NCBI GenBank assembly: GCA_003142015.1
Contig: PLOI01000049.1
Coordinates: forward strand, 68,876-120,281
From: Acidobacteriaceae bacterium
GTDB taxonomy: Bacteria > Acidobacteriota > Terriglobia > Terriglobales > Acidobacteriaceae
Length of the DNA stretch: 51,406 nucleotides
Direction: 5' to 3'
Of this stretch, positions 23,231-43,807 are shown one piece after another. A model generated the notes under the pieces. It saw only the letters and a program-made list of their open reading frames with translations. It ran no database searches and was not told the DNA's origin. Position numbers and translations under genes: made by a program. The stretch's first letter is position 1. The number at the start of each line of letters is the position of its first letter.

Positions 23231-23567
23231 TATAACTACGGCTCTTTATCTATAGTCCTTTTATCGTTCTTTACAATCTTGCCCGCCCGCATCAGCCGTA
23301 TTCCTGTCACTAATCTTAAGATTCAGAATTTTGCAAAGCGTGACCGAGCCAATTATCATCTTCTTCCACGGGATTTAGAGCAGATCCTCTCCTAGCACAT
23401 GAAACGGCCTCGTGTTTTGTACTCTGAGGTTGATCATGGTGCAAGGACGAAAGGCCAATGCCCGCACGCGGCAATCGAAAAAATCAAGGTTTGCATTTTA
23501 CCGCGCTCGCGATATGCTAATCCAACACTCCAAAGCCGTCCGAGCACGCAAGCGAGGCTCTTCCATC
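23231..23567. other. Intergenic region upstream of the molybdenum-hydroxylase operon
   Basis: AT-rich stretch at 23230-23300, then unremarkable sequence. The open frame continues upstream of the chosen gene start but has no family similarity. A TACAAT at 23272-23277 could be a -10, without a matching -35. No gene or RNA recognised. Confidence 0.3.
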
Positions 23568-25856: not shown

Positions 25857-26377
25857 GCGCGGCGAAGATTCAGTTGAGTGAAATCCGGTTCAAAGTAAAC
25901 GGCGTAGAGCGCAGCGCAACTGTGCCGCCGATGAAGCGACTGCTGGACGTGCTGCGCGAAGACCTCGCGCTGACAGGCGTGAAAGAAGGCTGTGGCGAAG
26001 GCGAGTGTGGATCATGCTCCGTGCTGTTGGACGGCGTGCTGGTGAACAGTTGCCTCGTGCCGGCGCTGCAGGCCAGCGGCTGCGAAGTGCTCACGGTCGA
26101 GGGGCTCGCGACCAACGGCGCGCTGGCACATATTCAGCGGACTTTTCTCGAACTGGGAGGAACGCAGTGCGGCATTTGCACCCCCGGCATGATGTTGGCA
26201 GCGGAATCCCTGCTCAGGAAGAATCCTCATCCGGACCTCGATGCGATTCGTGAAGGCCTGGCCGGAAATCTCTGCCGCTGCACCGGCTATATGCGCATCA
26301 TCGATGCCGTAAAGCACGCGATCGAGGAGCCAATACTGACGGCGGACCTCGCGCCGGAAGAAACGGTGCATAAATGA
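25853..26377 (+). CDS. [2Fe-2S] subunit of the molybdenum hydroxylase
   Basis: A 174-residue electron-transfer subunit with two [2Fe-2S] centres. The N-terminal plant-type ferredoxin domain has CGEGECGSCSVLLDG plus a distal Cys; the C-terminal helical domain has CGICTPGM and CRCTGYMRI. The start ATG overlaps the previous stop (ATGA) and the stop overlaps the next start in the same way, so the three subunits are translationally coupled. It relays electrons from the Mo site to the FAD subunit. Confidence 0.93.
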   Translation: MSAAKIQLSEIRFKVNGVERSATVPPMKRLLDVLREDLALTGVKEGCGEGECGSCSVLLDGVLVNSCLVPALQASGCEVLTVEGLATNGALAHIQRTFLELGGTQCGICTPGMMLAAESLLRKNPHPDLDAIREGLAGNLCRCTGYMRIIDAVKHAIEEPILTADLAPEETVHK

Positions 26378-27246
26378 GATCGAACGTCTCCGAGTACGAG
26401 TTCATCGCGCCGGGTTCGCTCGACGCGGTGCTGGCGTTGCTGTCCGCGGAGCCAGGCGCGTGGACGCCCATGGCCGGCGGCACCGAACTGATGGTCGCTC
26501 TCGGCGCAGGGCGCCTGGAGCAGCGCAAGCTGGTCAGCCTGTGGGGCATTGGCGAACTGCGCGGCATCACGGCAAGCGCTGATTGGCTGACCATCGGCGC
26601 TGGAGCCACCTATACCGACATTCGCGAGAACGCCGCCATTGCGAAGGAATTTCCGCTGCTGGCGCGCTCGGCAAGCTGGACCGGCGCCATTGCCAATCAG
26701 AACCGCGGCACTCTGGGCGGCAACATTGTGAATGCATCGCCCGCGGCCGATTCTCCGCCCGTGCTGCTGGTCTATGAAGCGGAGATCGAGCTTGTCTCAG
26801 CGCAGGGCGCGCGCCGCATGAATTACAGTGAATTTCATCTGGGATACAAGCGCACCGTGCTGCGGCCGCAGGAGCTGGTGATGGCCGTGCATCTGCCGCG
26901 AGGCCACCGCTTGCCAGTCGAGTATCTGCGCAAAGTAGGAACGCGCAATGCCATGGCCATCTCCAAAGTGGCGCTTGCCGGGGTGGGAGCCATGCAATCG
27001 GGCAAAGTGCAAACAGTGCGCATCGCCGCAGCCAGCCTGCGTGAAACGCCGGCTCGCCTGTCGATGACCGAGGCCGTGTTGGTCGGCCATGCGCTGACCT
27101 CCGATCGAATTCAGGCCGCGCGCAAAGCTCTGCTCCAGGAAGTGAAACCTATCGACGACGTTCGTTCCACCGCAAAGTATCGCGCCCACGTAGCGGCGAA
27201 TTTGCTGGAAGAGTTTCTTAACCAGATGGCAGCTTCCGAGAGCTGA
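26374..27246 (+). CDS. FAD-binding subunit of the molybdenum hydroxylase
   Basis: A 290-residue protein of the CoxM/XdhB/YgfM type. The FAD-binding domain has MAGGTELMVALGAG and TIGAGATYTDI near residues 30-80, GTLGGNIVNASPAADSPPVLL near residue 115, and a C-terminal CO-dehydrogenase flavoprotein domain. It completes the trimeric enzyme. It may also serve the fused FeS-Mo enzyme at 32777, which has no FAD subunit beside it; E. coli pairs YgfM with XdhD in a comparable way. Confidence 0.9.
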   Translation: MRSNVSEYEFIAPGSLDAVLALLSAEPGAWTPMAGGTELMVALGAGRLEQRKLVSLWGIGELRGITASADWLTIGAGATYTDIRENAAIAKEFPLLARSASWTGAIANQNRGTLGGNIVNASPAADSPPVLLVYEAEIELVSAQGARRMNYSEFHLGYKRTVLRPQELVMAVHLPRGHRLPVEYLRKVGTRNAMAISKVALAGVGAMQSGKVQTVRIAAASLRETPARLSMTEAVLVGHALTSDRIQAARKALLQEVKPIDDVRSTAKYRAHVAANLLEEFLNQMAASES

Positions 27247-27294
27247 GAGTGCCGTCCCGTCGAACTAACCCGCCAACTTACTAACTCTATCGAT

Positions 27295-28623
27295 TCAAAA
27301 GCGCTTCCAAAGCTTCTCAGAGGAAACTCTGGCTTTGGCCATCACCTCTTGCTCGTCAATCTCAAGAAGTTTTCTATCTTCCATCACAATTCTCCCGCCG
27401 ATGATCGTGGTAACGACAGATCGTCCGGAGACGCCGAAGAGAATATGGCTGGCGATATTCGCGCTGTGCAGGGGAGTTGGCGGATCGTAGTCCACAACAA
27501 TCACATCAGCGTACGCGCCGGGAATCAGTTTGCCCACCGGGCGTCCGAAGCAGTCACTCGCAATAGCGGCGTTTTCGCTGAACAGCATCGCCGGAGCCTC
27601 TGTCCAGCCGGCACCCGGTTGACCTGTCTGGTGCTTCTGCAACATATTCGCGACCTTCAGAGACTCGAACATATCCGTGGTGTAACCGTCCGTGCCCAGT
27701 CCAACCCGCACACCGCGGTGCATCATTTCGAGCACCGGAGCGCAGCCCACCGCATTCGCCATGTTCGATTCAGGGTTGTGAATCACGTTCGTCTTGCTGC
27801 CTCGCAATACGTCAATCTCGGCGTCGTTCACATGGACGCAATGGGCTGCGATGGTCTTACTGCCCAGAATGCCTAGATCGTGCAAGCGTTGCACCACTCG
27901 CTTCCCATACTCGCGCTGACATTGGGCCACATCAGCCTCCGCCTCAGCTATGTGAATATGAAAGCCGGCGTCGAGTTCCGCGGCCAGGCGAGTGCAGCGG
28001 GCAACAGTTTTGTCGCTCAAAGTAAACGAAGCGTGCAGCCCGAAAAGTCCTCTCAAGAGGCTGTCTTCGGATTGCTTGCAGTTTTCGAGGAACGCGCGAT
28101 TTTCCTCGATGCTTTGATCCGTAATCTCCGCGCCTTCGCGATCCGTGACCTCGTAGCAAAGACAACTGCGCACACCGGTCCGTCGCGCGGCCTCCGCGAT
28201 GCGGAACAGGCTGCCGGTCACCGCGCCGGGGCTGGAATGATGGTCGAAAATGGTGGTCGTTCCATTTTTGATGCAGTCGATAAGCGCCACCATAGCGCTC
28301 AGATACACATCCTCCAGGGTGAGAACCTTATCCAGCCGCCACCAGACACGCTCCAGGATTTGCAGGAAGTTGCCCGGAGCTTCGTCTTTCAGCGCCATTC
28401 CGCGGGCAAACGTGCTGTACAGATGCATGTGAGTGTTGATCAGCCCTGGCATGATCAGCCGGCCCCGCGCATTCACGAACTGCGCGGCCGGATGCCGTCG
28501 CTGCAAATCAGCCGTCGCGCCAACCTCGGCAATCAGACCATCCTCGATGGCGACACAACCATCCTCAATCAGGGGCGACCCATCATCCTGAGTAATCAGG
28601 CACCCATTTCCGACCAACAACAT
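27295..28623 (-). CDS. ssnA: SsnA-like amidohydrolase
   Basis: A 442-residue metal-dependent hydrolase/deaminase of the amidohydrolase superfamily, the same length as E. coli SsnA. Metal ligands visible: NTHMHLYS, GFHIHIAEA, AAHCVHVND and LGTDGYTTDM. Stretches typical of SsnA rather than of guanine or triazine deaminases are WWRLDKVLTLEDVY, FDHHSSPGAV and DYDPPTPLHSANIASHILFG. ATG 28623 has GGAGG eight bases upstream; the longer frame has none. SsnA lies in purine/urate-degradation loci with xdhD and ygfK. Its exact reaction is not settled. Convergent to the Mo hydroxylase. Confidence 0.87.
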   Translation of the reverse strand: MLLVGNGCLITQDDGSPLIEDGCVAIEDGLIAEVGATADLQRRHPAAQFVNARGRLIMPGLINTHMHLYSTFARGMALKDEAPGNFLQILERVWWRLDKVLTLEDVYLSAMVALIDCIKNGTTTIFDHHSSPGAVTGSLFRIAEAARRTGVRSCLCYEVTDREGAEITDQSIEENRAFLENCKQSEDSLLRGLFGLHASFTLSDKTVARCTRLAAELDAGFHIHIAEAEADVAQCQREYGKRVVQRLHDLGILGSKTIAAHCVHVNDAEIDVLRGSKTNVIHNPESNMANAVGCAPVLEMMHRGVRVGLGTDGYTTDMFESLKVANMLQKHQTGQPGAGWTEAPAMLFSENAAIASDCFGRPVGKLIPGAYADVIVVDYDPPTPLHSANIASHILFGVSGRSVVTTIIGGRIVMEDRKLLEIDEQEVMAKARVSSEKLWKRF

Positions 28624-28960
28624 GAAAGATGCCTCCGTTGCGCGAAGATCACAGCTGATGAATGCTGCCCGCGATGTGACCTGTATCACAGTATGGCGAG
28701 CGCAAGCAGGACAACAATTGTTTCAGGCTGAACTGGATGTTGGCAACCTTCAACCAACAGATACGGCCATGGTGGAACCAATCCGGCATTGCGCCAGGTA
28801 GCGCCTTTTCGATGCTACGAAATGTCCGGTTCAATCGTCCGTGGCTGGCTTTTCTCTCTGAAATTTTTCTGTAATGAACCCGCGCGGCCTGGAGAGCGCT
28901 CGCAACACTGTCTGATGTCTGGTGTGTTATTCTTTACACCCTTATTGAGTGGAAGGTGGA
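28624..28960. other. Divergent regulatory region, ssnA / plus-strand catabolic operon
   Basis: About 340 bases between two divergent catabolic transcripts. It holds a perfect CRP/FNR-type palindrome at 28675-28690 and a partial half-site (ATCACAG, 28648-28654). No convincing -35/-10 was found for the plus-strand operon. No small gene recognised. Confidence 0.5.
28675..28690. promoter_or_regulatory. CRP/FNR-family operator
   Basis: TGTGA-CCTGTA-TCACA matches the CRP half-site pair exactly, with the canonical six-base spacer. It is centred 60 bases before the ssnA start codon, a usual position for activation. Any Crp/Fnr-family regulator with CRP-like recognition residues could bind; the actual protein is not in the window. 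Confidence 0.6.
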
Positions 28961-30046
28961 ATGGCAAAGTTGAGTGTACAAATCTGCGGGCTCGAATTTT
29001 TGAACCCGATTTTGCCCGCCGCTGGACCGCCGTCCAGGAATGGCGCCATGCTGCAGGCGGCTGCGGTTGGCGGCGCCGGGGGATTAGTTACAAAGACGAT
29101 CTCAGTGCATCCGGCGCATGTGCCGCACCCTTGCATGGCGGAAATCCGTGGCGGATTTCTGAATACAGAGCTATGGTCCGAGTTACCCAAAGAGCAATGG
29201 ATCGAAACGGAGTACAAGTTAGCCAAAGCTACCGGACTGCCGGTCATTATTGGCCTGGGATATACGGCCAATCAAATCCGTGAACTGGCTCCCTTGGTGA
29301 AGCCTTACGCCGATGCTCTTGAGCTTTCCACGCACTACGTCGGCAACGATATTTCTCCCATCATCAATGCGCTCAGGGCGGCCAAGGCAGCGGTCGATGT
29401 CCCGGTGTTCATGAAGCTCAGTCCGCATCCGAATATCCAGGAGATCGCAATAGCGCTGGAGCAGGCAGGCGCCGATGCACTGGTCATGATCAACTCTTTT
29501 GGCCCTTGCCTGAGCATCGATCTGGAGACGGGCCTGCCGCTCATGGGCAGCAAGGAGGGCTTTGGCTGGCTCTCCGGTCCGGCCATCAAGCCGCTGGCTC
29601 TGCGCTGCGTGTATGATGCCGCGCGCGCGGTGAAGATTCCCATCTTTGGCGTAGGCGGCGTTTCGAACGGCCGCGATGCGGCGGAGATGTTCATGGCCGG
29701 CGCTTCCGCCGTGCAGGTTTGCACGGAAGCCATCCTGCGCGGTCCGTCGGTCTATGGAAGAATTGCCAAAGAACTCGATGCTTTCCTTGACAAGCACGGT
29801 TACCAATCGATTGAGGAGATCAAGGGCCTTACCATTCGCAGGATGGCAGAGTACGACGCGCTCCCAGTAGTGAGGCCTCCTCATGTTGATGTGGAGCGGT
29901 GCAATCTTTGTGGGTTGTGTGAAATCAGTTGCCCGTACGGCGCCATCACGAAGGGTGAAGTCCTGAATATCGACAGGGAGAAATGCTTTATATGCGGGTT
30001 GTGCGTTAGCCGATGCAAGCTTCAAGCACTTGCGATGGAACGGTAG
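28961..30046 (+). CDS. PreA-like dihydroorotate-dehydrogenase-fold oxidoreductase with two [4Fe-4S] clusters
   Basis: A 361-residue protein: an FMN-binding TIM barrel of the dihydroorotate/dihydropyrimidine dehydrogenase family (residues 1-300; GVGGVSNGRDAAEMF and CTEAILRGP near the phosphate site), then a ferredoxin tail with CNLCGLCEISCP and CFICGLCVSRC. It probably reduces or oxidises a C=C bond in a cyclic ureide or pyrimidine-like ring. It differs from the PreA at 42420: it is 100 residues shorter and has LELSTHYVGND where PreA has NYGCPHGMSERGMG, so its substrate likely differs. ATG 28961 follows GGAAGGTGG. No PreT partner is adjacent; it may use the PreT at 43808. Confidence 0.8.
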   Translation: MAKLSVQICGLEFLNPILPAAGPPSRNGAMLQAAAVGGAGGLVTKTISVHPAHVPHPCMAEIRGGFLNTELWSELPKEQWIETEYKLAKATGLPVIIGLGYTANQIRELAPLVKPYADALELSTHYVGNDISPIINALRAAKAAVDVPVFMKLSPHPNIQEIAIALEQAGADALVMINSFGPCLSIDLETGLPLMGSKEGFGWLSGPAIKPLALRCVYDAARAVKIPIFGVGGVSNGRDAAEMFMAGASAVQVCTEAILRGPSVYGRIAKELDAFLDKHGYQSIEEIKGLTIRRMAEYDALPVVRPPHVDVERCNLCGLCEISCPYGAITKGEVLNIDREKCFICGLCVSRCKLQALAMER

Positions 30047-30090
30047 ATCCACGCGCCACAAGCGTTCTGAGATTTTGATGGGTTGGGAAG

Positions 30091-31353
30091 ATGATGACCT
30101 ATTTCACCGGGCTACGATGCGTTCATTGCGGACGCGAATACCACGCGGATGAAGTGGATTACTTCTGCCCGGCGTGCGGCTACCACGACGGCATTCTGGA
30201 CGCTCTGTACGACTATGACTCGATGCGGAAGGAAATTAATCCCGCGACGCTTGCAGGCAACGGCAATCGATCCATGTGGCGCTATCTGCCTTTGCTTCCG
30301 ATAGCGGATCAAACGCTGATTCCTCATCTGCAGGTGGGATGGACCCCATTGTATGACGCTCCCAAAGTGGCCGGCGAATTAGGCGTGGCGCGCTGCTGGG
30401 TGAAAGACGAGGGCCGCAATCCTACTGCTTCGTTCAAGGACCGCGCCAGCGCGATGGGCGTGGTAAAGGCATTGGAGAAGAAGGCGTCGCGGATTACTTG
30501 CGCTTCCACAGGCAATGCTGCCTCTTCTCTGGCCGGATTCTCCGCAGCTGCTGGAATACCGGCGACCATCTTTGTTCCAGCACGCGCGCCCGAAGCCAAG
30601 GTGGCCCAGTTACTCATCTACGGAGCGCAGGTGTTCTCCGTTCAGGGAACTTACGATGAAGCATGGGAATTGTGCATGGCGGCTGCCGCGGAGTTCGGCT
30701 GGTACAACCGCAACTGCGCCATCAATCCATATCTGATAGAAGGCAAGAAGACCGTATCTTTGGAGTTAGTCGAACAGTTTAGGACACTTACTCCTGGCAG
30801 TTTTCCCGATTGGATCGTAGTCTCGGTCGGCGACGGTTGCACGATAGGCGGAGTGTGGAAGGGACTGAAGGAGATGCACCTTCTCGGCTTCATTCCCCGC
30901 TTGCCGCGAATACTTGGTGTACAGGCCGATGGGTGCAAGCCGTTCCTTACCGCGTGGCGTGATAACTGCGGCCTGGCTCCATGTGATGCCAATACTCTGG
31001 CAGACTCCATCGCCGTCGGACATCCGCGAAACTTCAGCAAGGGAATGAGAGCAGTTACCGAGTCCGGCGGCGCATTCGTCTCCGTCTCCGACGAAGAGAT
31101 TCTTGGTGCGATCCCCATGCTGGCGCGCAAGGCAGGAGTCTTTGGCGAGCCGGCCGGTGTTGCTGGCGCTGCGGGAGTCAAGCGGGCGGTGGAGTCAGGC
31201 ATCATAGGTCGCTCGGAAACTGTGGCGATCATCATGACAGGTAATGGCCTGAAAGATATCCAAAGCGCAATTCGCGCCGCGGGAAACACCATTGCAGTTC
31301 AACCCGACATGGAAGAAGTTCGAAAAGCCGTAAATACCGCAGTGACAGTCTGA
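30091..31353 (+). CDS. Threonine-synthase-like PLP enzyme
   Basis: A 420-residue fold-type-II PLP enzyme that by family rules is a threonine synthase (ThrC). It has an N-terminal zinc ribbon (CVHCGREY, then CPACGYHD), the PLP lysine in NPTASFKDRAS, the STGNAASS phosphate loop and MTGNGLKD near the C-terminus. Biosynthetic thrC would be unexpected inside a catabolic operon without hom or thrB. A recruited beta-elimination or replacement role, for instance releasing ammonia from a diaminopropionate-like intermediate, is possible but is inference only. Starts at ATG 30091 or 30094. Confidence 0.78.
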   Translation: MMTYFTGLRCVHCGREYHADEVDYFCPACGYHDGILDALYDYDSMRKEINPATLAGNGNRSMWRYLPLLPIADQTLIPHLQVGWTPLYDAPKVAGELGVARCWVKDEGRNPTASFKDRASAMGVVKALEKKASRITCASTGNAASSLAGFSAAAGIPATIFVPARAPEAKVAQLLIYGAQVFSVQGTYDEAWELCMAAAAEFGWYNRNCAINPYLIEGKKTVSLELVEQFRTLTPGSFPDWIVVSVGDGCTIGGVWKGLKEMHLLGFIPRLPRILGVQADGCKPFLTAWRDNCGLAPCDANTLADSIAVGHPRNFSKGMRAVTESGGAFVSVSDEEILGAIPMLARKAGVFGEPAGVAGAAGVKRAVESGIIGRSETVAIIMTGNGLKDIQSAIRAAGNTIAVQPDMEEVRKAVNTAVTV

Positions 31354-31397
31354 TGCTGCTAATCGCCGCAAATAAATGAAAGTGAGAAAAGTTCAAA

Positions 31398-32753
31398 ATG
31401 GCAAAGATTCCGTTCGGTCCTAATTACGATGAAATGCTTGCCCCGAGCCTGATCGACAAGGATATTCGCACCAAAGCTCTGGCTGCATTGACGCAGAATG
31501 AGCTTGACCCCATCAATCTGTTCAACATTACCTGGAAAGACGCAACCAATCAGGTCCGTAAAGTCGTGCTGCCGTCGGCGCTTACCGGAATCGATGCAAA
31601 CATCGTGGTAATGCTGGGCTGCGGATTTCCCTCCGGCTCTCACAAGGTTGGTCCGGCCTACAGCACTCTGATCGAAGGGCTGGTAGATGGAGAGATTATC
31701 CCAGGCGAGCACACCATTCTAGGGCCTTCGACGGGTAACTTCGGCATTGGCACGGCCTATGTTTCGAAGCTGCTCGGCTTCCGCGCCATTGTCATCATGC
31801 CGGATAGCATGAGCAAGGAGCGCTATGAGCGCATCAAGAGATATGGCGGCGAATTGGAGTTGACGCCCGGCTCTGAATCGGATGTAATTCTGACCTTGGA
31901 AAAAACCAGGGAGTTAATGAAGAACCCGAAGAATAAGGCTTTGGCTCAGTTTGAGCTCTTTCCCAATTATCGTTTCCATCGCCATGTAACTGGAGGCAGT
32001 GCCATAGACGCGGTGAAGGGAGTGGGCAACGGCAGAATCGCTGGCTTTACTTCGGCGCCGGGTTCAGCGGGCACACTGGCGGCAGGCGATCAGATCAAGG
32101 CGACGTTCCCAGAGGCCAAGGTCGCCGCGCTGGAGCCTTATGAATGTTCAACCTTGGCCAATGGAGGCCGCGGCCAGCATCGCATCGAGGGAATCGGCGA
32201 CAAGATGTGCACGCTGATTCACAATGTCCTGAACACCGATTTCGTCATTCTCATAAAGGATGAAGAAACGGTGCAGGGAGTCAAAATCTTCCATGATGGC
32301 GTGGACGCGCTGGTTAGCATGGGCGTGGATCGGAATTTTGCCCTGAGTCTGCGGGATTTGTTTGGCCCATCCGGCATCTGCAATGTGCTGGGCGCAATAA
32401 AGCTGGCGAAGTTCCTGCGGCTGGGCCCGGGAGATAATGTTGTGACCATCGCAACCGACGGCTTTGATCGCTATAACTCGGTGCTGGAGGAGTTGAACAG
32501 CCGTTATCTCGAACTGGCTCCGCAGGTATTGAACCGCTGGACTCGCGACATATTCCTCGGCGCAACCGATGAACTTGTATTTGACTTCCGCAAGCCCTCG
32601 GCAAAGGAACAACTCTTCAAGCAAAAAGAGAACGACTGGTTGAAGTTCGGTTACTCAAAGCAGTTTCTCGACTCCATGCGCAACCAGTCTTTCTGGGATG
32701 CACAGTATGCAAAGGTGGGCGAGTATAACAGGAAAATTCTCGCCTCGCGGTAG
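31398..32753 (+). CDS. Fold-type-II PLP-dependent enzyme (cysteine-synthase/TrpB superfamily)
   Basis: A 451-residue PLP enzyme. It has the Schiff-base lysine in PSGSHKVGPAYS, the phosphate loop GPSTGNFGIGTA, an ILGATD-like central domain with YRFHRHVTGGSAIDAV, and a C-terminal TIATDGFDRY. It is usually annotated as a PLP-dependent protein, beta subunit; I cannot assign a reaction. It directly follows the threonine-synthase-like gene and precedes the fused Mo hydroxylase. This is roughly the role slot occupied in E. coli by YgeX (diaminopropionate ammonia-lyase), although the motifs are not those I associate with YgeX. Confidence 0.72.
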   Translation: MAKIPFGPNYDEMLAPSLIDKDIRTKALAALTQNELDPINLFNITWKDATNQVRKVVLPSALTGIDANIVVMLGCGFPSGSHKVGPAYSTLIEGLVDGEIIPGEHTILGPSTGNFGIGTAYVSKLLGFRAIVIMPDSMSKERYERIKRYGGELELTPGSESDVILTLEKTRELMKNPKNKALAQFELFPNYRFHRHVTGGSAIDAVKGVGNGRIAGFTSAPGSAGTLAAGDQIKATFPEAKVAALEPYECSTLANGGRGQHRIEGIGDKMCTLIHNVLNTDFVILIKDEETVQGVKIFHDGVDALVSMGVDRNFALSLRDLFGPSGICNVLGAIKLAKFLRLGPGDNVVTIATDGFDRYNSVLEELNSRYLELAPQVLNRWTRDIFLGATDELVFDFRKPSAKEQLFKQKENDWLKFGYSKQFLDSMRNQSFWDAQYAKVGEYNRKILASR

Positions 32754-32776
32754 TTTGAACCGAAGGAGTTTCGGCT

Positions 32777-35329
32777 ATGTTCAAATTCGCGCTGAACCAG
32801 AAGTCAGTTACTGTAGCAGCGGATAAGAACCTGCTGGAATACCTGCGCGAAGATGCGCGCTTGACTTCGGTGAAAGACGGTTGTGCGGAAGGGGTCTGCG
32901 GCTCCTGCTCCGTGCTGGTGGATGGGAAGGCGTGGCGTGCCTGCAAACTAACTATTGCCAAGGTGGAAGGGAAAGCAGTCACCACTATTGAAGGTCTCAC
33001 GGATCGCGAGAAGAAGGTCTATTCCTGGGCCTTCGGCGAAGTGGGGGCAGTGCAGTGCGGTTTCTGCATGCCGGGAATGGTGATTAGCGCGAAAGCGCTT
33101 CTGGACAATAATCCAAGTCCTACTTCCGCGGAGATCAAGAGCGCCATACGGTATAACTTGTGCCGTTGCACAGGCTACTTGAAGATTGAACAGGCGATTC
33201 ATCTGGCAGCGAAGGCATTGCGCAATGGCGAGACTCTCATCGCGGAAAGTTGCACGGCCAAAGTGGGTGCCCGCACAGTTCGTGTGGATTCAGAAGAAAA
33301 GCTACTTGGGACAGGCGAGTTTGTTGACGATATGAAGGTCCCAGGGATGCTCTATGGCGTCGCGCTCAGGGCCAAATATCCGCGGGCCTTAGTGAAGAAG
33401 ATCGACATCTCTGCCGCGCGGGCCTTCCCGGGCGTGGAGGTTGTGCTCACGGCCAAAGACGTTCCTGGCGAACGTATGCTGGGTCATATCGTTCACGACT
33501 GGCCAGTGATGATTGCCGAGGGCGAAGAAACTCGCTACGTGGGCGACGCGCTTGCTGTGCTGGCGGCGACTACGAAGGAGATAGCTCGCAAAGCTCTGGA
33601 ATTAATTCGCGTAGAGTATGAGGAGCTTACGCCGATGTTGTCGCCGGAGGCGGCAATGGCGGAAGGCGCGCCGCGGATTCACCCCAAAGGCAATCTACTT
33701 TCGGAAACCATCATGAAGCGCGGCAATGTCGATAAGGCCATCGCTGAGGCAAAGTACGTTGTGACAGAACGGTACTCAACGCCGCGCCAGGAACACGCGT
33801 TTCTGGAACCGGAGAGCGCGCTGGCAGTTCCGACAGAAGATGGCGCGCTTACGGTCTATACCGCCGGTCAAGGCGTTTACGACGACCGTCAGGGCATCAT
33901 GGAGATGCTCGGGTTGCCGGACGAAAAAGTTCGCGTGATCAGCAAACTGGTTGGCGGAGGATTCGGCGGCAAAGAGGATCTCTCTGTGCAGCATCACGCC
34001 GCGTTATTGGCGTGGCATAGCGGACGGCCTGTGAAAGTGACGTTCACACGCGCGGAGAGCTTTCTTGTTCACCCCAAGCGCCACCCCATGGAGATGTATT
34101 TCACCACCGCCTGTGATGAGCGCGGAAAGATTACAGCAGTGCGAGCGCGCATCGTGGCTGACACGGGCGCTTACGCATCACTGGGTGGTCCGGTTTTGCA
34201 GCGGGCTTGCACGCACGCAGCGGGTCCGTACCAGATTGATAATGTTGATATTGAAGGACGCGCTTTCTATACCAATAACATTCCCTCCGGTGCGTTCCGC
34301 GGCTTTGGAGTTACACAGACTTGCTTCGCCGGGGAGAGCAACCTGAATCTGCTGGCTGCCAAGCTCGGAATCTCCCCATGGGAGATTCGCTTCCGCAACG
34401 CCATTGAACCCGGCGGCGTGCTTTCCAACGGACAGATTGCTGACGCAGGAACGGCATTGAAGGAGACGCTGCTCGCAGTGAAGGATGTTATTGAAGCCCA
34501 TCCCGACGCGGGAATTGCCTGCTCATTCAAGAACGCTGGCAAAGGCGTCGGCGTGCCCGATGTCGGACGGGCGAAATTGAAGGTGCAGAACGGCGGCGTT
34601 CTCATCTGCACCAGCGCGGCCTGCATGGGGCAGGGATTGGCCACCGTTCTGTTGCAGATTGTGGCTGAAGCCACAGGACTCGCGGGCTCGGCAATCAGCG
34701 TGCATGAGCCGGACACGATGGTGACCCCCGACAGCGGAACCAGCACAGCATCGCGGCAGACGCTCGTCACCGGCGAGGCAGCGCGGCGGGCCGCGGTTGG
34801 TTTGAAGCAGGAGCTAGATAAACACTCACTGACCGAACTGGAAGGCCGCGAGTTCTATGCAGAGTACGATTGCGTTACTGATCCCATGACCTCCGAAAAA
34901 CCCAACCGGGTAAGTCACGTTGCGTACGGATACGCCACTCACGTTGTCATTCTGGATCGCGAAGGAAGAATACAGAAGGTGGTCGCTGCTCATGATGTAG
35001 GTAAGGCCATCAATCCGAATGGCGTCGAGGGACAGATCGAAGGCGGCGTCGTAATGGGATTGGGATATGCACTGACCGAAAAATTTTCAGTCCGTAATGG
35101 CGCGCCGGCTGTCACCCTGGGTACCCTTGGACTGCTGCGCGCGCCACAGGTCCCGGAGATTGAGTGTCATCTTATCGAGAAGAACTCCGCCACTTTGGCC
35201 TATGGGGCGAAGGGTGTGGGAGAAATTGTGATGGTCACGACCACGCCCGCGGTAGCTTGCGCATACTTTAATCGCGACGGCAAATTGCGCAACAGCCTTC
35301 CTCTCAAAGACACCCCTTACAGCCGTTGA
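32777..35329 (+). CDS. xdhD: Fused [2Fe-2S]-molybdopterin hydroxylase, XdhD / selenium-dependent XDH type
   Basis: An 850-residue molybdenum hydroxylase with the iron-sulfur and Mo subunits in one chain. Residues 1-160 hold two [2Fe-2S] motifs (CAEGVCGSCSVLVDG; CGFCMPGM...CRCTGYLK). Residues 165-850 hold the hammerhead and Mo domains, with GGGFGGKED, SGAFRGFGVTQ, MGQGLATV and GAKGVGEIVM (catalytic Glu). This fused layout and length match the selenium-dependent xanthine dehydrogenase family (E. coli XdhD is 956). Selenium would be a labile Mo ligand, not selenocysteine, so it cannot be seen in sequence. Good AAGGAG ribosome site. It lacks a FAD module, so electrons may go to the 26374 FAD protein or to a ferredoxin domain. 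Confidence 0.86.
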   Translation: MFKFALNQKSVTVAADKNLLEYLREDARLTSVKDGCAEGVCGSCSVLVDGKAWRACKLTIAKVEGKAVTTIEGLTDREKKVYSWAFGEVGAVQCGFCMPGMVISAKALLDNNPSPTSAEIKSAIRYNLCRCTGYLKIEQAIHLAAKALRNGETLIAESCTAKVGARTVRVDSEEKLLGTGEFVDDMKVPGMLYGVALRAKYPRALVKKIDISAARAFPGVEVVLTAKDVPGERMLGHIVHDWPVMIAEGEETRYVGDALAVLAATTKEIARKALELIRVEYEELTPMLSPEAAMAEGAPRIHPKGNLLSETIMKRGNVDKAIAEAKYVVTERYSTPRQEHAFLEPESALAVPTEDGALTVYTAGQGVYDDRQGIMEMLGLPDEKVRVISKLVGGGFGGKEDLSVQHHAALLAWHSGRPVKVTFTRAESFLVHPKRHPMEMYFTTACDERGKITAVRARIVADTGAYASLGGPVLQRACTHAAGPYQIDNVDIEGRAFYTNNIPSGAFRGFGVTQTCFAGESNLNLLAAKLGISPWEIRFRNAIEPGGVLSNGQIADAGTALKETLLAVKDVIEAHPDAGIACSFKNAGKGVGVPDVGRAKLKVQNGGVLICTSAACMGQGLATVLLQIVAEATGLAGSAISVHEPDTMVTPDSGTSTASRQTLVTGEAARRAAVGLKQELDKHSLTELEGREFYAEYDCVTDPMTSEKPNRVSHVAYGYATHVVILDREGRIQKVVAAHDVGKAINPNGVEGQIEGGVVMGLGYALTEKFSVRNGAPAVTLGTLGLLRAPQVPEIECHLIEKNSATLAYGAKGVGEIVMVTTTPAVACAYFNRDGKLRNSLPLKDTPYSR

Positions 35330-35377
35330 GATCGCAAGTGCGCAGAGGAAGTAACAACACGAAAGGGCAAGCTAGTG

Positions 35378-36568
35378 ATGATGACAGCAGAACGGAGCCA
35401 ACAGCTTATCGCTTTGTGCCAGGCGCTTATTCAGAGCCAGAGTTATTCGGGTCATGAAGATGGCGTAGTAAACCGGATGAAGCAGGCGTTCGATAAGTGG
35501 GGATTCGACGAGGTGATCGTCGACTCCTACGGCAGCGTTCTGGGACGCATCAAAGGCAATCGCCCCGGCAAGGTCATGCTGCTCGATGGGCACATTGACA
35601 CGGTACCGGTTCCGGATGGATCCAAGTGGACGCACAAGCCCTTCGGCGGCGAGTTAGTGGATGGAAGGATCTACGGACGCGGCACGTCGGACATGAAAGG
35701 CGCAGTCAGTGCCATGATGGCTGCTGCCGCATTTTTCGCAGCGGACACGCGAAGAGACTTCGCGGGAGAGATCTATGTTTCGGGAGTTGTATACGAAGAA
35801 TGTTTCGAAGGAGTCGCTGCCAGGAAGATCAGCGAACGTATCCGGCCCGACTACGTAGTGATTGGAGAATCTTCAGAACTGAACCTGAAACGGGGCCAGC
35901 GCGGCAGGGCGGAGGTGGTGGTGGAAACCTTTGGCAAGCCGGCCCACTCCGCCAATCCGCGAGCGGGCATCAATGCGGTTTATAAGATGGCTGAACTCAT
36001 TCGTAAGATCGCCAGACTTGAAGCGCCGGCGCACCCCATCATGGGTCAGGGCATTCTGGAACTCACAGATATCAAGTCTTCTCCTTATCCTGGCGTATCC
36101 GTCGTACCGGATTACTGCCGTGCGACTTATGATCGCCGTCTGCTCGTTGGCGAGACCCAGGAATCGGTCTTGAGGCCGTTGCTGGCACTGATTAGCGAGA
36201 TGAAAAGCACAGACCCACAGTTCGAGGCAAAGGTGCATTTCGCCGCCGACACACAAACCTGCTACACAGGGAACGAGATCAACGGCGAAAGATTCTTTCC
36301 AGGCTGGCTCCTGGAGCAAGAGGATGAATTTGTTCAAGCAGCTCTCTTAGGATTGCGAAGCGCCGGTCTGAACCCGCAGATTACCCAATACTCGTTTTGC
36401 ACGAACGGCAGTCACTACGCAGGCGAAGCTGGAATCAAGGCCGTCGGCTTTGGGCCATCCCGAGAAGATATCGCGCATACCATCGATGAATACATCGAGG
36501 TCGATCAATTATTGAAAGCCGCAGAGGGCTATTACGGAATCTTGCAGGCGGTGTTGCAGAAAGGTTGA
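35378..36568 (+). CDS. ygeY: YgeY-like M20 family hydrolase
   Basis: A zinc-dependent M20 peptidase/deacylase of about 396 residues, close to E. coli YgeY (403). Metal ligands are visible in DGHIDTVPVP, YGRGTSDMKGA, YEECFEG (catalytic and metal acids) and the C-terminal SHYAGEAG. Family-specific stretches include ATYDRRLLVGETQESVL and GFGPSREDIAHTIDEY. YgeY occurs with ssnA, hyuA and Mo hydroxylases in purine/urate-degradation loci and is thought to cut an amide or ureide intermediate. The start is one of GTG 35375, ATG 35378 or ATG 35381; an AAAGGG lies upstream. Five bases separate it from the next gene. Confidence 0.85.
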   Translation: MMTAERSQQLIALCQALIQSQSYSGHEDGVVNRMKQAFDKWGFDEVIVDSYGSVLGRIKGNRPGKVMLLDGHIDTVPVPDGSKWTHKPFGGELVDGRIYGRGTSDMKGAVSAMMAAAAFFAADTRRDFAGEIYVSGVVYEECFEGVAARKISERIRPDYVVIGESSELNLKRGQRGRAEVVVETFGKPAHSANPRAGINAVYKMAELIRKIARLEAPAHPIMGQGILELTDIKSSPYPGVSVVPDYCRATYDRRLLVGETQESVLRPLLALISEMKSTDPQFEAKVHFAADTQTCYTGNEINGERFFPGWLLEQEDEFVQAALLGLRSAGLNPQITQYSFCTNGSHYAGEAGIKAVGFGPSREDIAHTIDEYIEVDQLLKAAEGYYGILQAVLQKG

Positions 36569-36572
36569 AAGA

Positions 36573-38171
36573 ATGAAGATTCTGGTCAAGAATGGCTGCA
36601 TCATCGATGGCACCGGTCAGCCTCGGTTCGCAGCCAGCCTGGCAATCGAAGATGAGCGGATCGCAGCTATCGGCAACGTGCTGGACACAGGCGGTTTCGA
36701 TCTGGCCATTGATGCCACGGGCCTCATTGTAGCTCCAGGGTTCATCGATACTCACAGTCACTCCGACTTGGCGGTGCTGATCAATCCTTATGTAGAAGCC
36801 AAGATTCGCCAGGGGGTTACTACTGAATTGTTGGGACAGGACGGAATATCCATGGCGCCTTTGCCCAGGAGATACATTTCGTCGTGGCGAAAGAATCTTG
36901 CCGGACTCGATGGGGACAATGATGAGCTTAATTGGGATTACGAAACGACCGATGGCTATCTGCAGGCGATGCAGGCGAACGGTGTCGGCTTGAATGAAAG
37001 CTATCTGGTTCCGCATGGCAATATCCGCATGGAGGCGATGGGACTGGACAATCGCAAGCCCTCGCCGGAAGAACTCGCGCGGATGCGGGAGATAACCCGG
37101 CGAGAGATGGAAGCTGGCGCATTTGGCCTTTCCACAGGGCTGATCTATATGCCCTGCGCCTACGCGGATACCGCTGAGTTGATCGAGTTATGCAAGGTTG
37201 TCGCGGAGTTTGATGGCGTCTTCGTTGTGCATCAGCGTAGTGAAGCAGACGCCATCCTGGACTCGATGAAGGAAGTTATAGAAATCGGCCGCAAGTCAGG
37301 AGTGAAGATTCACTTCTCGCACTTCAAGCTCTGCGGCCGCAAGAATTGGGGTCTCATCGACCAAATGCTTGACCTGCTCGACAGCGCCGCCGCTGAAGGG
37401 ATTCGAACCTCATTTGATCAGTATCCTTATGTCGCCGGAAGCACCATGCTGGGCGCGATTCTTCCGCCCTGGGCGCACGATGGAGGCACCGACAAATTAT
37501 TGGAGCGCCTCGCCAGCCCTCAGCTTCGGCAACGCATGGTACTCGATATGGAGCAAGGAATACCGGGCTGGGATAATTTTGTGGACTTCGCCGGCCTTGA
37601 TCAGATTTTCGTCACCAGCGTAAGGACGAGCGCGAATAAGGATCTGATTGGCAAGAGCCTTCTGGGGATTGGTGATATCCGAGGCAAGAATCCTTTCGAT
37701 GCCGCGTTCGATCTGCTTCTCGCCGAAGAGAATGCGGTTGGCATGGTTGATTTCTATGGCACGGAAGAGCACGTCATCCGCTTCCTGACACGGCCGGAAC
37801 AGAATGTCTGCACCGACGGCCTTCTGGGCGGCAGGCCGCACCCGCGCGTCTTCGGATCATTTCCGCGTGTTCTGGGAAAGTATGTGCGCGAGGAAAAGGC
37901 GCTCACGCTTGAGAGCACAATTCGTAAGATGACGTCCAAGCCCGCCGAAGTTTTCGGCTTCAAACGACGTGGCTTGTTAGAGCCGGGCAACTTTGCGGAT
38001 GTTGTCGTTTTCAATCCCGACACGGTCATCGACAAGGGAACGTTTGTCGATCCGATTCAATTCCCGGTAGGTATCGAAGATGTCTTGATCAATGGACACG
38101 TTGTGCTGCACTCCGGCAGTTACGAGCGCACGCTTGCCGGAAAGGTGCTCCGCAGATCCTGTATCCAATGA
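36573..38171 (+). CDS. N-acyl-D-amino-acid deacylase family amidohydrolase
   Basis: A 532-residue amidohydrolase of the D-aminoacylase family. Metal-site features: DTHSHSDLAVL near residue 65, HFSHFKLCG near residue 250 and CTDGLLGG near residue 411. Where classical D-aminoacylase has GNCGIS (its Cys is a metal ligand), this protein has GQDGIS, which places it in a different subgroup and suggests another acylated or ureido substrate. It is the last gene of the plus-strand operon and is followed by a strong terminator. The AAGGTTGAAAGA ribosome site overlaps the ygeY end. Confidence 0.8.
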   Translation: MKILVKNGCIIDGTGQPRFAASLAIEDERIAAIGNVLDTGGFDLAIDATGLIVAPGFIDTHSHSDLAVLINPYVEAKIRQGVTTELLGQDGISMAPLPRRYISSWRKNLAGLDGDNDELNWDYETTDGYLQAMQANGVGLNESYLVPHGNIRMEAMGLDNRKPSPEELARMREITRREMEAGAFGLSTGLIYMPCAYADTAELIELCKVVAEFDGVFVVHQRSEADAILDSMKEVIEIGRKSGVKIHFSHFKLCGRKNWGLIDQMLDLLDSAAAEGIRTSFDQYPYVAGSTMLGAILPPWAHDGGTDKLLERLASPQLRQRMVLDMEQGIPGWDNFVDFAGLDQIFVTSVRTSANKDLIGKSLLGIGDIRGKNPFDAAFDLLLAEENAVGMVDFYGTEEHVIRFLTRPEQNVCTDGLLGGRPHPRVFGSFPRVLGKYVREEKALTLESTIRKMTSKPAEVFGFKRRGLLEPGNFADVVVFNPDTVIDKGTFVDPIQFPVGIEDVLINGHVVLHSGSYERTLAGKVLRRSCIQ

Positions 38172-38215
38172 ACCTGTGTCAAGAAAGTTTTATAAGGATA
38201 TGTAGTTGAAATAGC

Positions 38216-38249
38216 TTTTGCCCTGGCTCCGTGAAGCCAGGAGCAAAAA
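38216..38249. terminator. Bidirectional rho-independent terminator
   Basis: The stem TTTTGC...CTGGCT (38216-38228) pairs with AGCCAG...GCAAAA (38235-38248), with loop CCGTGA and a small bulge. A T-run on one side and an A-run on the other let it end both convergent operons (D-aminoacylase gene on plus, aminotransferase gene on minus). Confidence 0.72.
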
Positions 38250-38259
38250 CTCGTATGTC

Positions 38260-39621
38260 TCACCCTTCAACCAGCGCGTCCGCAATGCCGAGGTGTTCAT
38301 CAAGCGCGGCGATGCCAATATCCAGCTCTTCCTTGGTCACGATCAACGGCGGCGCAATGACGAAGTGGCTCACCCATGCCTGAATCGAAACTCCCTGAGC
38401 CATCATTTTTCCTGTGATCTGATCCACCAGCAGCGGCTTGCCTTCGACCTTGTCGCGCATAGTGTTGAAGGGCTGCTTGGTGGTGCGGTTCTTCACGATT
38501 TCGACAGCGAAGAAGAGGCCGAGGCCGCGCACGTCTGCCACCGATGGGTGCCGTGTCTTGAGTGCTTCCAGCTTTTCGCGCACATAGGGTTCGAGGGCTG
38601 CCGCGCGCGCCACCAGGTCCAGCCGCTGCATCTCCTCGATGGTGGCCACGGCAGGGCCGAGCATCAACGGATGAGCCTCATAAGTGTGCCCGTGAGAAAA
38701 GTAGTGATCCTCGAAGTAGTCGGCGATCTTAGTGGTGGTGGCGCACAAACCGAGCGGCACATAAGCCGAGGTGATGCCCTTGGCAGTCACCAGAATGTCT
38801 GGCGTCACGCCCCAATGCTGCTCTGCGAACCATTTGCCCGTGCGGCCCCAGCCGGTCATTACCTCGTCGCCGATCAGCAGGACGCCGTGCCGGTCGCAGA
38901 TTTCGCGAATGCGCGGAAAGTATTCTGGCGGCGGAACGAGGACGCCGTTGGTGCCGACGACCGGCTCGAGAATAATGGCCGCGACATCGCTCTCGTTGCG
39001 GATCATGTGCTCAATGTAGTCGGCGCACGCGATGTTACAGCCCGGATACGTGTGCTTGATAGGGCAATTGAAACAGTTCGTCTCCGGAGCAAACACAAAG
39101 CCCGAGCCCTTGCCGCCCGGCTCCATGGCCCAACGGCGCGGATCGCCAGTCGCCGCAATGGCAGCGTTCGTGGAACCGTGATAGGAGCGGTAACGCGAGA
39201 TGATCTTGGCCTTGCCTGTATACATGCGCGCAATTTTGAAGGCGGCCTCATTGGCCTCAGCTCCGCCGGTCGAGAAGAAGAATTTATTGAGGCCCTCGGG
39301 CAGCACTTCCAATAGCTTCAGGCTGAGACGGGCGCGGGCTTCGGTGGCGTAGCCTGGAGCAGCATAAGGCAGTTCGCGCGCCTGCTCGGCGATCGACTCG
39401 ATTACGCGCTTGTTCTTGTGGCCCAGATTTACGCACATCAACTGCGATGAAAAATCGAGGTAACGCTTGCCCGCGCCATCCGTAAACCAGCAGCCCTCGG
39501 CGTCGGCAATATGCAACGGCTTCCAGCCTTTCTGGAAGCGCCAGGTACCGTAGTTAGTTTGCCGAGTGATGTTGGTGATTTCTTCGGATGTAAGCGCCTT
39601 CGATTCGGTAATATTGCTCAT
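38260..39621 (-). CDS. Class III aminotransferase, probable beta-alanine transaminase
   Basis: A 453-residue class III PLP aminotransferase. Motifs: FFSTGGAEANEAAFKIA, YRSYHGSTNAA, ILEPVVGTNGV, IGDEVMTGWGRTG and the Schiff-base lysine in TAKGITSAYVPLG. As last gene of an operon with preT, preA, dihydropyrimidinase and ureidopropionase, it most likely converts beta-alanine (or 3-aminoisobutyrate) to malonate semialdehyde. The insertion NCPIKHTYPGCN with spaced Cys is unusual. ATG 39621 has GGAGAG upstream. The amino acceptor is unknown. Confidence 0.83.
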   Translation of the reverse strand: MSNITESKALTSEEITNITRQTNYGTWRFQKGWKPLHIADAEGCWFTDGAGKRYLDFSSQLMCVNLGHKNKRVIESIAEQARELPYAAPGYATEARARLSLKLLEVLPEGLNKFFFSTGGAEANEAAFKIARMYTGKAKIISRYRSYHGSTNAAIAATGDPRRWAMEPGGKGSGFVFAPETNCFNCPIKHTYPGCNIACADYIEHMIRNESDVAAIILEPVVGTNGVLVPPPEYFPRIREICDRHGVLLIGDEVMTGWGRTGKWFAEQHWGVTPDILVTAKGITSAYVPLGLCATTTKIADYFEDHYFSHGHTYEAHPLMLGPAVATIEEMQRLDLVARAAALEPYVREKLEALKTRHPSVADVRGLGLFFAVEIVKNRTTKQPFNTMRDKVEGKPLLVDQITGKMMAQGVSIQAWVSHFVIAPPLIVTKEELDIGIAALDEHLGIADALVEG

Positions 39622-39727
39622 AACTTTGCTCTCCGGTAAAAATTCGTATGGTATCGCCAAGTCCTAGGCGTGAAGCGGACATATTGCTCATGAATTAAGT
39701 GTCAAAGTCGCGCCAGAAAGTTTCCTT

Positions 39728-40969
39728 TCACTGAGCGCGGATCCAATCCATAGTCTTCGACGCCAGCTTATCGAGTGCGATTACAGCCAGTTTCAAATGT
39801 TCTTCGCTCGTGTCTTCAATCTTGTTGTGGCTGATTCCCTTGAGCGATTGCACAAAAAGCATGGCAGTCGGGATACCGGCCCTGGAGACCTCAGCCGCGT
39901 CGTGCAGCGGCCCCGACGGCAGGCGATGCGATCGTCCCGCCGTCTCGCGGATTGCCTCTTCGCAGAACTCGACCAGCTTGGGATGAAACGGCTCCGGCGC
40001 AATGTTCCAGATGCGCGACCACTCCACTGTGCATCCTTCTTCCTTCGCGAATTGCGCGCTCTTTTCCTGAGCCTCGCGATACATCGTGGCCAGTACGCCG
40101 GCATCCAGATCGCGCTGGTCAAGAGTGGCCTCGCAACGGCCAACGACCGCAGTCACAATTCCCGGAAAAGTCTTGACGCTGCCAATGGTGCATACCGCGT
40201 CGGGATGCCGCTTTGCGATGGGGCGAATTTCCAGCGCCAGTTTTGCGGCGGCAGCCAGGGCATCGCGGCGCGCCGTCATGGGCGTAGAGCCGGAGTGCGC
40301 CTCCTGGCCGTGGAACGTGATAGTGTGCCGCTCCACGCCTTTGGTGCCGAGCACTGCGCCCAGCGGAAGGCCCATTCCCTCCAGCACCGGACCCTGCTCA
40401 ATGTGCAACTCAAGATAGGCTGCCGCGTTCTTCCGCTCCCGTCCGGCGTCGCCGATGGAATCAATGGAGACGCCACATTCCGCCAGCGCATCTTCAAGTC
40501 GCTTGCCTCCCGCATCCGTGCGTCCACGATCCTGGTCGATGGTTTGCGTGCCGGCAAAGGCCGACGATCCGAAAAGGCTGCGCCCAAAGCGCGCACCCTC
40601 CTCATCCGCCCAATCGACCAGCCGCACGGTCACTGGCGGTTTGCCTTTGTACTCCTCGGCAATGCGGCGCAGGACGGTGTAGCCTCCGATCACGCCCAGA
40701 CAGCCGTCGAGCCATCCTCCATTGGGCACCGAATCGAGGTGACTGCCGAGAATCAGAGTCGCCTCGGCGCTTCCAGCGAGCGTACTCCAACTATTGCCGG
40801 CGGCATCATAGTGATGCTCCACCGGCAATTCACGGAGCTTGGATTCAAACCATTTGCGCGCTTGGAGCCACACCGGACTCCAGGCCAATCGTTGTGCGCC
40901 ATGCTCATCGGCTGTGAGTGTGCGCAACTCCTTGAGCAGATCAACCGCTGCCTGTGCGTCAACCGGCAT
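39728..40969 (-). CDS. M20-family N-carbamoyl amidohydrolase (beta-ureidopropionase type)
   Basis: A 413-residue zinc amidohydrolase of the allantoate amidohydrolase / beta-alanine synthase / hydantoinase-C group. Ligands and motifs: GSHLDSVPNGGWLDG, ADEEGARFG, ELHIEQGPVLE, GQEAHSGSTPM and SGPLHDAAE. It hydrolyses N-carbamoyl-beta-alanine (or allantoate-like ureides) to ammonia, CO2 and the amino acid. Its position after dihydropyrimidinase favours beta-ureidopropionase. It is also the only enzyme in the island able to remove a carbamoyl group, since no carbamoyltransferase is present. AAAGGAG ribosome site. Confidence 0.87.
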   Translation of the reverse strand: MPVDAQAAVDLLKELRTLTADEHGAQRLAWSPVWLQARKWFESKLRELPVEHHYDAAGNSWSTLAGSAEATLILGSHLDSVPNGGWLDGCLGVIGGYTVLRRIAEEYKGKPPVTVRLVDWADEEGARFGRSLFGSSAFAGTQTIDQDRGRTDAGGKRLEDALAECGVSIDSIGDAGRERKNAAAYLELHIEQGPVLEGMGLPLGAVLGTKGVERHTITFHGQEAHSGSTPMTARRDALAAAAKLALEIRPIAKRHPDAVCTIGSVKTFPGIVTAVVGRCEATLDQRDLDAGVLATMYREAQEKSAQFAKEEGCTVEWSRIWNIAPEPFHPKLVEFCEEAIRETAGRSHRLPSGPLHDAAEVSRAGIPTAMLFVQSLKGISHNKIEDTSEEHLKLAVIALDKLASKTMDWIRAQ

Positions 40970-40998
40970 AAGTCACTCCTTTCGTCTTTTATTGCGGC

Positions 40999-42375: not shown

Positions 42376-42419
42376 TTCTACGCTCTCCCTTCCTGTGCGG
42401 CAATGGCTCTAAAGATGCA

Positions 42420-43805: not shown

Positions 43806-43807
43806 GC

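Follow-up and report, generated by a model that had tools for sequence, protein, structure and literature searches.

A conserved pair of PLP enzymes in the YgeX position of an Acidobacteriaceae reductive urate operon, with a possible exit to serine

How does a bacterium finish the reductive breakdown of urate when the enzyme that ends the published route is missing from its gene cluster? The question is raised by a 51,406-nucleotide stretch of DNA from an Acidobacteriaceae bacterium (GenBank assembly GCA_003142015.1, contig PLOI01000049.1, positions 68,876 to 120,281), here called the window, which carries a six-gene operon on its plus strand (28961-38171, intergenic gaps of 4-45 bp). The operon encodes a UacX-like protein, two pyridoxal phosphate (PLP) enzymes, the fused molybdenum (Mo) hydroxylase XdhAC, YgeY and UacY. 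We refer to the PLP enzymes as PLP1 (30091-31353, +), a ThrC-like fold-type-II enzyme with a PALP domain, and PLP2 (31398-32753, +), a CysK/TrpB-like enzyme with a C-terminal extension. An initial annotation, made from the sequence alone, had described two adjacent PLP enzymes ahead of the Mo hydroxylase, YgeY and a D-aminoacylase-like protein, and all six genes were found in that order. Gene context makes it probable that the pair stands in for the missing enzyme, YgeX; more tentatively, its product may be L-serine.

It took until 2025 for the biochemistry of the reductive urate pathway to be worked out in full. In that account (Li et al. 2025, PMC12507026), yanthine made by XdhD is reduced by YgfK or UacX, opening of the rings falls to SsnA and HyuA, removal of the ureido groups to YgeW or UacY and to YgeY, and YgeX closes the published form of the route by producing pyruvate. 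Clostridioides difficile, as portrayed there, has UacX in the place of YgfK, and UacY (for which the structure 3GIQ was used) hydrolyses the 2-ureido group instead of YgeW and YqeA. Of the markers of such a cluster the window holds SsnA, an XdhA/XdhD-type Mo hydroxylase beside SsnA, UacX (DHO_dh) and UacY with YgeY, but not YgeX. Judged by homology, the operon is a reductive urate (yanthine) cluster of the published C. difficile type. The likeness extends to SsnA, the UacX-like protein, XdhAC, YgeY and UacY, with a hydantoinase available; the differences are that YgeX is missing, with PLP1 and PLP2 in its place, and that the hydantoinase lies on the opposite strand, in an adjacent pyrimidine cluster. 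The window UacX is 54-63% identical to its counterparts in YgeX-bearing Clostridia clusters (L188, L190, L192, L193 and L201 among them), YgeY is 62-67% identical to the YgeY of clusters L188, L193 and L201, and UacY is 61-63% identical to UacY-like genes of L188, L193, L197 and L201. With the Escherichia coli yge/ygf cluster the window has the overall route and the YgeY and SsnA functions in common; it differs in being without YgfK, YgeW, YqeA, YgeX and XdhD-YgfM, and the ureido nitrogen-carbon that is phosphorolysed in E. coli would here be hydrolysed by UacY. The earlier proposal of carbamoyl hydrolysis without recovery of ATP is borne out by homology (the best PDB match of UacY is 3gip/3giq). 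Hydrolysis by UacY instead of YgeW/YqeA has already been published (PMC12507026); the PLP1-PLP2 pair is what is new. Neither the pair nor a serine exit is described in the titles and abstracts of the literature searched, most subscription journals and bioRxiv lying outside its scope.

Could YgeX be encoded elsewhere in the genome? The assembly (G000) comprises 3.42 Mb in 167 contigs and is 87.9% complete, about 12% of the genome lying outside it, and at this completeness none of its 13 PALP places is YgeX. Seven of these were scanned with NCBIfam and comprise one IlvA, one IlvA-like, three CysK/CysM-like and two ThrC-like proteins; the window pair accounts for two more, and the other four are TrpB-like gene pieces recognised by eye. 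The YgeX model TIGR03528 had zero matches in the assembly at 1e-10, and TIGR00746, for carbamate kinase, had none either. YgeW was not found in the assembly, where PyrB and an ArgF whose gene is divided between two contigs, both named by eye, are the only carbamoyltransferases. The absence of ygeW, yqeA and ygeX that had been noted for the window therefore extends to the assembly.

That PLP1 and PLP2 are simply threonine and cysteine synthases lying in the operon by chance is hardly credible, even though PLP1 passes the NCBIfam thrC cut-off (208.4 against 167.1 bits; PRK08197, at 302 against 303, is not passed). The genome has housekeeping paralogues of its own, ThrC (L010) and CysK (L007). 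In a tree of 74 rows (28 of PLP1 and 18 of PLP2), built by a quick method that carries a warning of long branches meeting, PLP1 forms a single clade (SH-aLRT 98) apart from ThrC-like, CysK, IlvA-like and YgeX rows, PLP2 forms another (SH-aLRT 100) that is not grouped with CysK, and L010 and L007 fall outside both. Gene trees, suggested with the initial annotation, thus place neither protein with housekeeping enzymes, despite the thrC score of PLP1. PLP1 keeps the threonine synthase (PRK08197/TIGR00260) fold, the PLP lysine K116 and the STGN loop, but at Thermus ThrC positions T88, S155, R160 and N188, which we take to contact the substrate phosphate, it has Ala in 37/37, Ala in 36/37, Leu or Met in 37/37 and Asp in 37/37 sequences, respectively; by alignment, the phosphate-site residues of ThrC are lost. 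PLP2 scores only 129 bits against the NCBIfam cysK cut-off of 351, and the co-location of the pair is conserved across phyla. A housekeeping identity was rejected on the tree, the residues and the canonical paralogues. A third ThrC-like protein of the genome (G000:C44:5381-6595; L011, L242) also lies outside the PLP1 clade and is without the canonical NSVNPxR segment.

The pair is equally distinct from YgeX itself. Like the pair, YgeX is of PLP fold type II and belongs at this point of the pathway, but it forms a clade separate from PLP1 and PLP2 and, unlike them, is paired with RidA in many clusters. Neither protein passes TIGR03528 (cut-off 532 bits): PLP2 scores 22 bits, and the family is not among the best 25 of PLP1. 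The strongest YgeX-type scores of the two are about 53-57 bits (NF006058, 57 bits for PLP1).

To what extent is the pair a unit, and of which pathway? A scan of genome contigs gave 347 stretches encoding PLP2, from which the 80 best (68-90% identity) were taken as the PLP2 loci. Relatives occur in Acidobacteriota, Bacillota and Mycoplasmatota, the nearest named ones being Acidobacteriaceae metagenome-assembled genomes, two of them from bog. PLP1 is present in 70 of the 80 loci, its midpoint no more than 2 kb from PLP2 in 55; the loci also contain YgeY (58), YgeW (53), SsnA (42), UacX (39), adenine deaminase (21), UacY (6) and YgeX (4). In 9 of the 80 there is none of YgeY, YgeW, UacY, SsnA, UacX and XdhAC. 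Mean column identity is 80% for PLP2 (n=39) and 60% for PLP1 (n=37). Among 396 Acidobacteriota genomes, 17 hold PLP2 at 1e-80, the window genome counted, and the surroundings were read in 13 others and in G057. More distant copies (38-60% identity) with readable surroundings lie mostly beside SsnA, XdhAC, YgeY, YgeW or PLP1; L124 has none of the pathway genes nearby, and L123 is a short contig. In G171, PLP1 is the first and PLP2 the last gene of a cluster holding XdhB, XdhAC, YgeY, a YgfK-like gene, YgeW, YqeA and SsnA.

The distribution of the pair is close to the complement of that of YgeX. The search for YgeX covered 50 of the 80 PLP2 genomes, and it is missing from 43, including the complete genome of strain zrk2; in G040 and G043, YgeX and PLP2 occur with no PLP1 at 1e-75. 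None of the 17 Acidobacteriota PLP2 genomes has a protein above the YgeX cut-off, G411 holding a 248-bit relative. As an independent sample, SsnA was found at 1e-80 in 30 of 391 Clostridia genomes, of which 28 were followed, G012 and G028 being already in the PLP2 set: 17 have YgeX, eight have PLP2 (1e-60), one has both (G485, without PLP1) and four have neither. PLP1 was sought in 20 of these 28 genomes; none of the eight PLP1-positive genomes has YgeX, against 9 of the 12 PLP1-negative ones (Fisher 0.0014, a rough value because loci are partly related, as with L088 and L096, same order, and G006 and G057, apparently one genome). Strong as this exclusion is, it has exceptions: 5 of the 50 genomes hold PLP1, PLP2 and YgeX together. 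We consider it probable, from this gene context, that the pair stands in for YgeX, in agreement with the replacement that the initial annotation had proposed.

What, then, would the pair make? By the published reductive steps urate would be converted to 2,3-diaminopropionate (DAP), the presumed substrate. PLP2, together with PLP1, would replace the beta-amino group of DAP with a hydroxyl drawn from water, yielding ammonia and L-serine, with chemistry as in Fn1055 of Fusobacterium nucleatum, which according to PMC9865163 and PMC12940168 converts cysteine and water to serine and H2S. Two fates would then be open to the serine: cleavage by serine hydroxymethyltransferase (SHMT) into glycine and methylene-tetrahydrofolate (methylene-THF), or deamination by L-serine dehydratase. 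That water takes the place of the beta-amino group is the simplest joint reading of the serine-linked neighbours, the RidA pattern and the residues of PLP2.

SHMT is encoded in 7 of the 80 PLP2 loci, where about 0.5 would be expected assuming one copy per 2.8 Mb. In L054 its gene separates PLP1 from PLP2, in L045, L081, L088 and L096 it immediately precedes PLP1, and in L042 and L077 it is found at another place of the cluster. In 3 of the 80 (L045, L053 and L054) PLP2 is immediately followed by the beta and alpha genes of L-serine dehydratase. The family assignments of both enzymes were confirmed on representatives, and neither SHMT nor L-serine dehydratase occurs in the 28 Clostridia SsnA loci. 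RidA clears aminoacrylate. It adjoins 9 of 15 YgeX genes (6/11 in the Clostridia set and 3/4 in the PLP2 set) and none of the 76 PLP2 genes without YgeX; these counts were made on open reading frames, and tblastn on the DNA returned the same loci. Glycine-cleavage genes lie downstream in L056 (GcvT was checked), with other genes between them and the cluster, an observation to which we give little weight.

PLP2 is a predicted serine-forming hydroxyl lyase (K83, Q184, D268). The best PDB sequence match of its residues 148-307 is Fn1055 (5b53), with which it shares a CysK-type fold; Asp232 and Gln147 of Fn1055 correspond in the alignment to D268 and Q184, and the PLP2 segment HRIEGIGDK is matched by HRIEGISDE of Fn1055. 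Asp232 is Asn in 5b55 (D232N), which according to its title was solved with the aminoacrylate intermediate, and in the 2018 Fn1055 structure paper this residue is said to drive the addition of water to aminoacrylate. D268 is present in 96/96 distinct PLP2 sequences, down to 37% identity, and Q184 in every sequence that has the column, with one gap; in four CysK-like controls the D268 column holds Ala twice, Val once and Asp once. PLP2 differs from Fn1055 in several ways: overall identity is about 25%, Thr73-Ser74 of the TSGN loop is not kept and reads S111-T112 in PLP2, SHK replaces the usual residues before the lysine, and there are some 90 extra C-terminal residues. The substrate of PLP2 is expected to differ from that of Fn1055, because the neighbours differ. 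Taken together, these data bring serine as the product, and the serine reading as a whole, to a little short of an even prospect; that PLP2 is the serine-forming enzyme is a real possibility, with the doubts somewhat heavier than the support. The YgeX-like lyase reaction of the initial annotation fits insofar as a C-N bond would be cleaved, but the sequence evidence points to L-serine and not to pyruvate.

Several observations weigh against this reading. A serine gene in 8/80 PLP2 loci against 0/11 YgeX loci is not a significant difference (Fisher 0.59), and there is no serine gene beside the window operon. Segment 148-307 was picked after Fn1055 had appeared among the fold matches, and in full-length searches Fn1055 ranks only 12th with one protein and 7th with a profile. 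The CysM-like protein L012 of the same genome (G000:C52:20251-21117) carries HRIQGISDEF with the Fn1055-type Asp, so D268 is not diagnostic by itself. Fold comparison puts beta-cyanoalanine synthase, CysK, Fn1055, O-ureidoserine synthase and CBS at Z 31-34; naming the function of PLP2 from its fold proved uninformative, as Fn1055 is not separated from CysK or CBS. PLP2 occurs without PLP1 in G040, G043, G485, L027, L030 and L066 and lies outside a visible purine cluster in L066 and L124. The five genomes with PLP1, PLP2 and YgeX (L025, L026, L031, L033 and L073) allow parallel roles for YgeX and the pair; in L073 a single locus holds PLP1, PLP2, three Mo-hydroxylase genes, RidA and YgeX, so both exits can coexist.

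The nearest alternative is that the pair is a non-homologous diaminopropionate ammonia-lyase, in which PLP1, PLP2 or both eliminate the beta-amino group to give pyruvate and ammonia as YgeX does. It would explain why the pair occupies the YgeX slot in near-exclusion with YgeX, and why G040, G043 and G485, which hold both PLP2 and YgeX, are without PLP1, a pattern to be expected if PLP1 and YgeX took each other's place; the PLP1 model also matches E. coli YgeX (4d9m), at rank 47 only. Yet two enzymes would be doing the work of one, serine-consuming genes recur beside the pair, and the contrast in RidA, so common beside YgeX and missing beside PLP2 where YgeX is absent, is left without a reason. 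We regard this alternative as unlikely. A very unlikely one moves the pair a step earlier, to albizziin (3-ureidoalanine), from which the ureido group would be removed directly by beta-elimination or replacement: CysK-fold enzymes do handle ureido groups, O-ureido-L-serine synthase being among the matches, and the pair adjoins UacY/YgeW, but YgeY, the remover of the 3-ureido group, is encoded in 58 of the 80 loci and would be idle.

Within the serine reading, the division of labour between the two enzymes is conjectural: racemisation, action on D-DAP and a second addition of water are all conceivable tasks for PLP1. In the version that gives each a separate step, PLP1 would be a racemase or D-specific and convert D-DAP to L-DAP, and PLP2 would turn L-DAP into L-serine. 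The pathway would yield D-DAP because UacY belongs to the D-aminoacylase family, and relatives of UacY act on D-substrates (PMC12507026). PLP2 stands with YgeY alone in L027 and L030, where PLP1 is absent or has a match in the ThrC range only, and serine racemases are among the structural matches of PLP1, at ranks 35 and below. That fold, however, is common to the whole superfamily, no residue evidence marks PLP1 as a racemase, and G040 and G043 have PLP2 without PLP1, which makes so strict a division quite unlikely.

A serine exit would also bear on the redox balance of urate fermentation. By our arithmetic, urate + 4[H] + 3 H2O gives DAP + 2 CO2 + 2 NH3; conversion of pyruvate to acetate returns 2[H], whereas serine, through SHMT and full oxidation of methylene-THF, returns 4[H], so that the serine branch sums to urate + 5 H2O = glycine + 3 CO2 + 3 NH3. 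Oxidation of the methylene-THF formed by SHMT from serine would pay back the four electrons that XdhAC and UacX consume, and no formate or other donor would be needed; the YgeX/pyruvate branch to acetate would be two electrons short. E. coli and Enterococcus use formate, according to PMC12507026. If true, a serine exit could explain the formate need of some uricolytic bacteria and possibly not of others, and it would be an enzyme activity without report in the literature searched. The widest form of the proposal, that many anaerobes possess in PLP1-PLP2 an undescribed DAP-to-serine system, a "diaminopropionate hydroxyl lyase", by which urate fermentation becomes redox self-balanced, with YgeX or the pair as a choice of redox strategy, is put forward tentatively and is more doubtful than not.

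Should a second exit be used in Bacillota, Mycoplasmatota and Acidobacteriota, surveys based on YgeX would miss urate degraders, and the names "threonine synthase" for PLP1 and "cysteine synthase" for PLP2 would mislead. Li et al. (PMC12507026) score YgeX near SsnA by PF00291; a PLP1/PLP2 variant would be hidden in that survey, because PF00291 also holds PLP1 and PLP2.

The surroundings of the pair vary between close relatives. In G057, of the same genus (L028/L120), the UacX-PLP1-PLP2-XdhAC block is as in the window, and the YgeY behind it is a different one (32% identity in L028), accompanied by YgeW and YqeA; L024 and L036 likewise carry YgeW, YqeA and a different YgeY behind the block, and the window and L021 carry YgeY and UacY. 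ATP-saving and hydrolytic modules are thus swapped between close relatives, as G057 and the window illustrate.

The other genes of the operon and its flanks fit the assignment made above. SsnA, the predicted dihydro-yanthine ring-opening amidohydrolase (27295-28689, -), is divergent and upstream of the operon and scores 644 bits with NF005540 (cut-off 444) and 616 bits with TIGR03314 (cut-off 455.5). The UacX-like protein, a predicted yanthine reductase (28949, with ATG at 28961, to 30046, +; DHO_dh 135 bits, and Fer4), has the PydA/dihydroorotate-dehydrogenase fold with a C-terminal 4Fe-4S and no FAD domain; it scores under every NCBIfam cut-off and agrees with UacX as described in PMC12507026. 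XdhAC (32777-35329, +; TIGR03311 1378 bits, cut-off 830) is a fused 2Fe-2S/molybdopterin hydroxylase of the selenium-dependent type and the predicted urate-to-yanthine reductase. YgeY (35375-36568, +; NF009555 494 bits, cut-off 321) is an M20 ureido hydrolase, and UacY (36573-38171, +; Amidohydro_3) is the D-aminoacylase-family hydrolase. A three-subunit xanthine-dehydrogenase-like Mo hydroxylase (23412-27246, +; pucD/XdhA, XdhC and XdhB families, all under NCBIfam cut-offs) is a possible upstream supplier of urate.

A complete-looking reductive pyrimidine set (38260-45145, -) stands just behind the urate operon, with PreT, PreA, dihydropyrimidinase, an N-carbamoyl-hydrolase-like protein and a class III aminotransferase; beyond it are genes for molybdate transport and Mo-cofactor maturation. 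The dihydropyrimidinase inside this cluster (40999-42375, -; TIGR02033 495 bits, cut-off 393) is the only copy in the genome at 1e-60 and the candidate HyuA, and may serve both the urate and the pyrimidine route. GC content is 55-57% at 27001-39000, against 58-65% elsewhere in the window, and in both tree clades the Acidobacteriaceae copies of PLP1 and PLP2 adjoin those of Sporomusaceae and Heliobacterium. Because of this tree position and the lower GC of the operon, it was likely gained laterally from Bacillota.

PLP2 may have another setting besides purine clusters (L066 and L124); in L066 it adjoins an IMP-dehydrogenase-like gene, named by eye. In the Sporomusaceae/Negativicutes loci L032, L033, L034, L035 and L043, L034 of which also holds a CyuA (UPF0597) gene named by eye, with nothing from NCBIfam at 1e-20, the genes for PLP1, UacY, YgeY and PLP2 stand behind a polar-amino-acid-type ABC transporter in stretches that hold neither SsnA nor UacX, an arrangement that would suit the uptake and use of a diaminopropionate conjugate.

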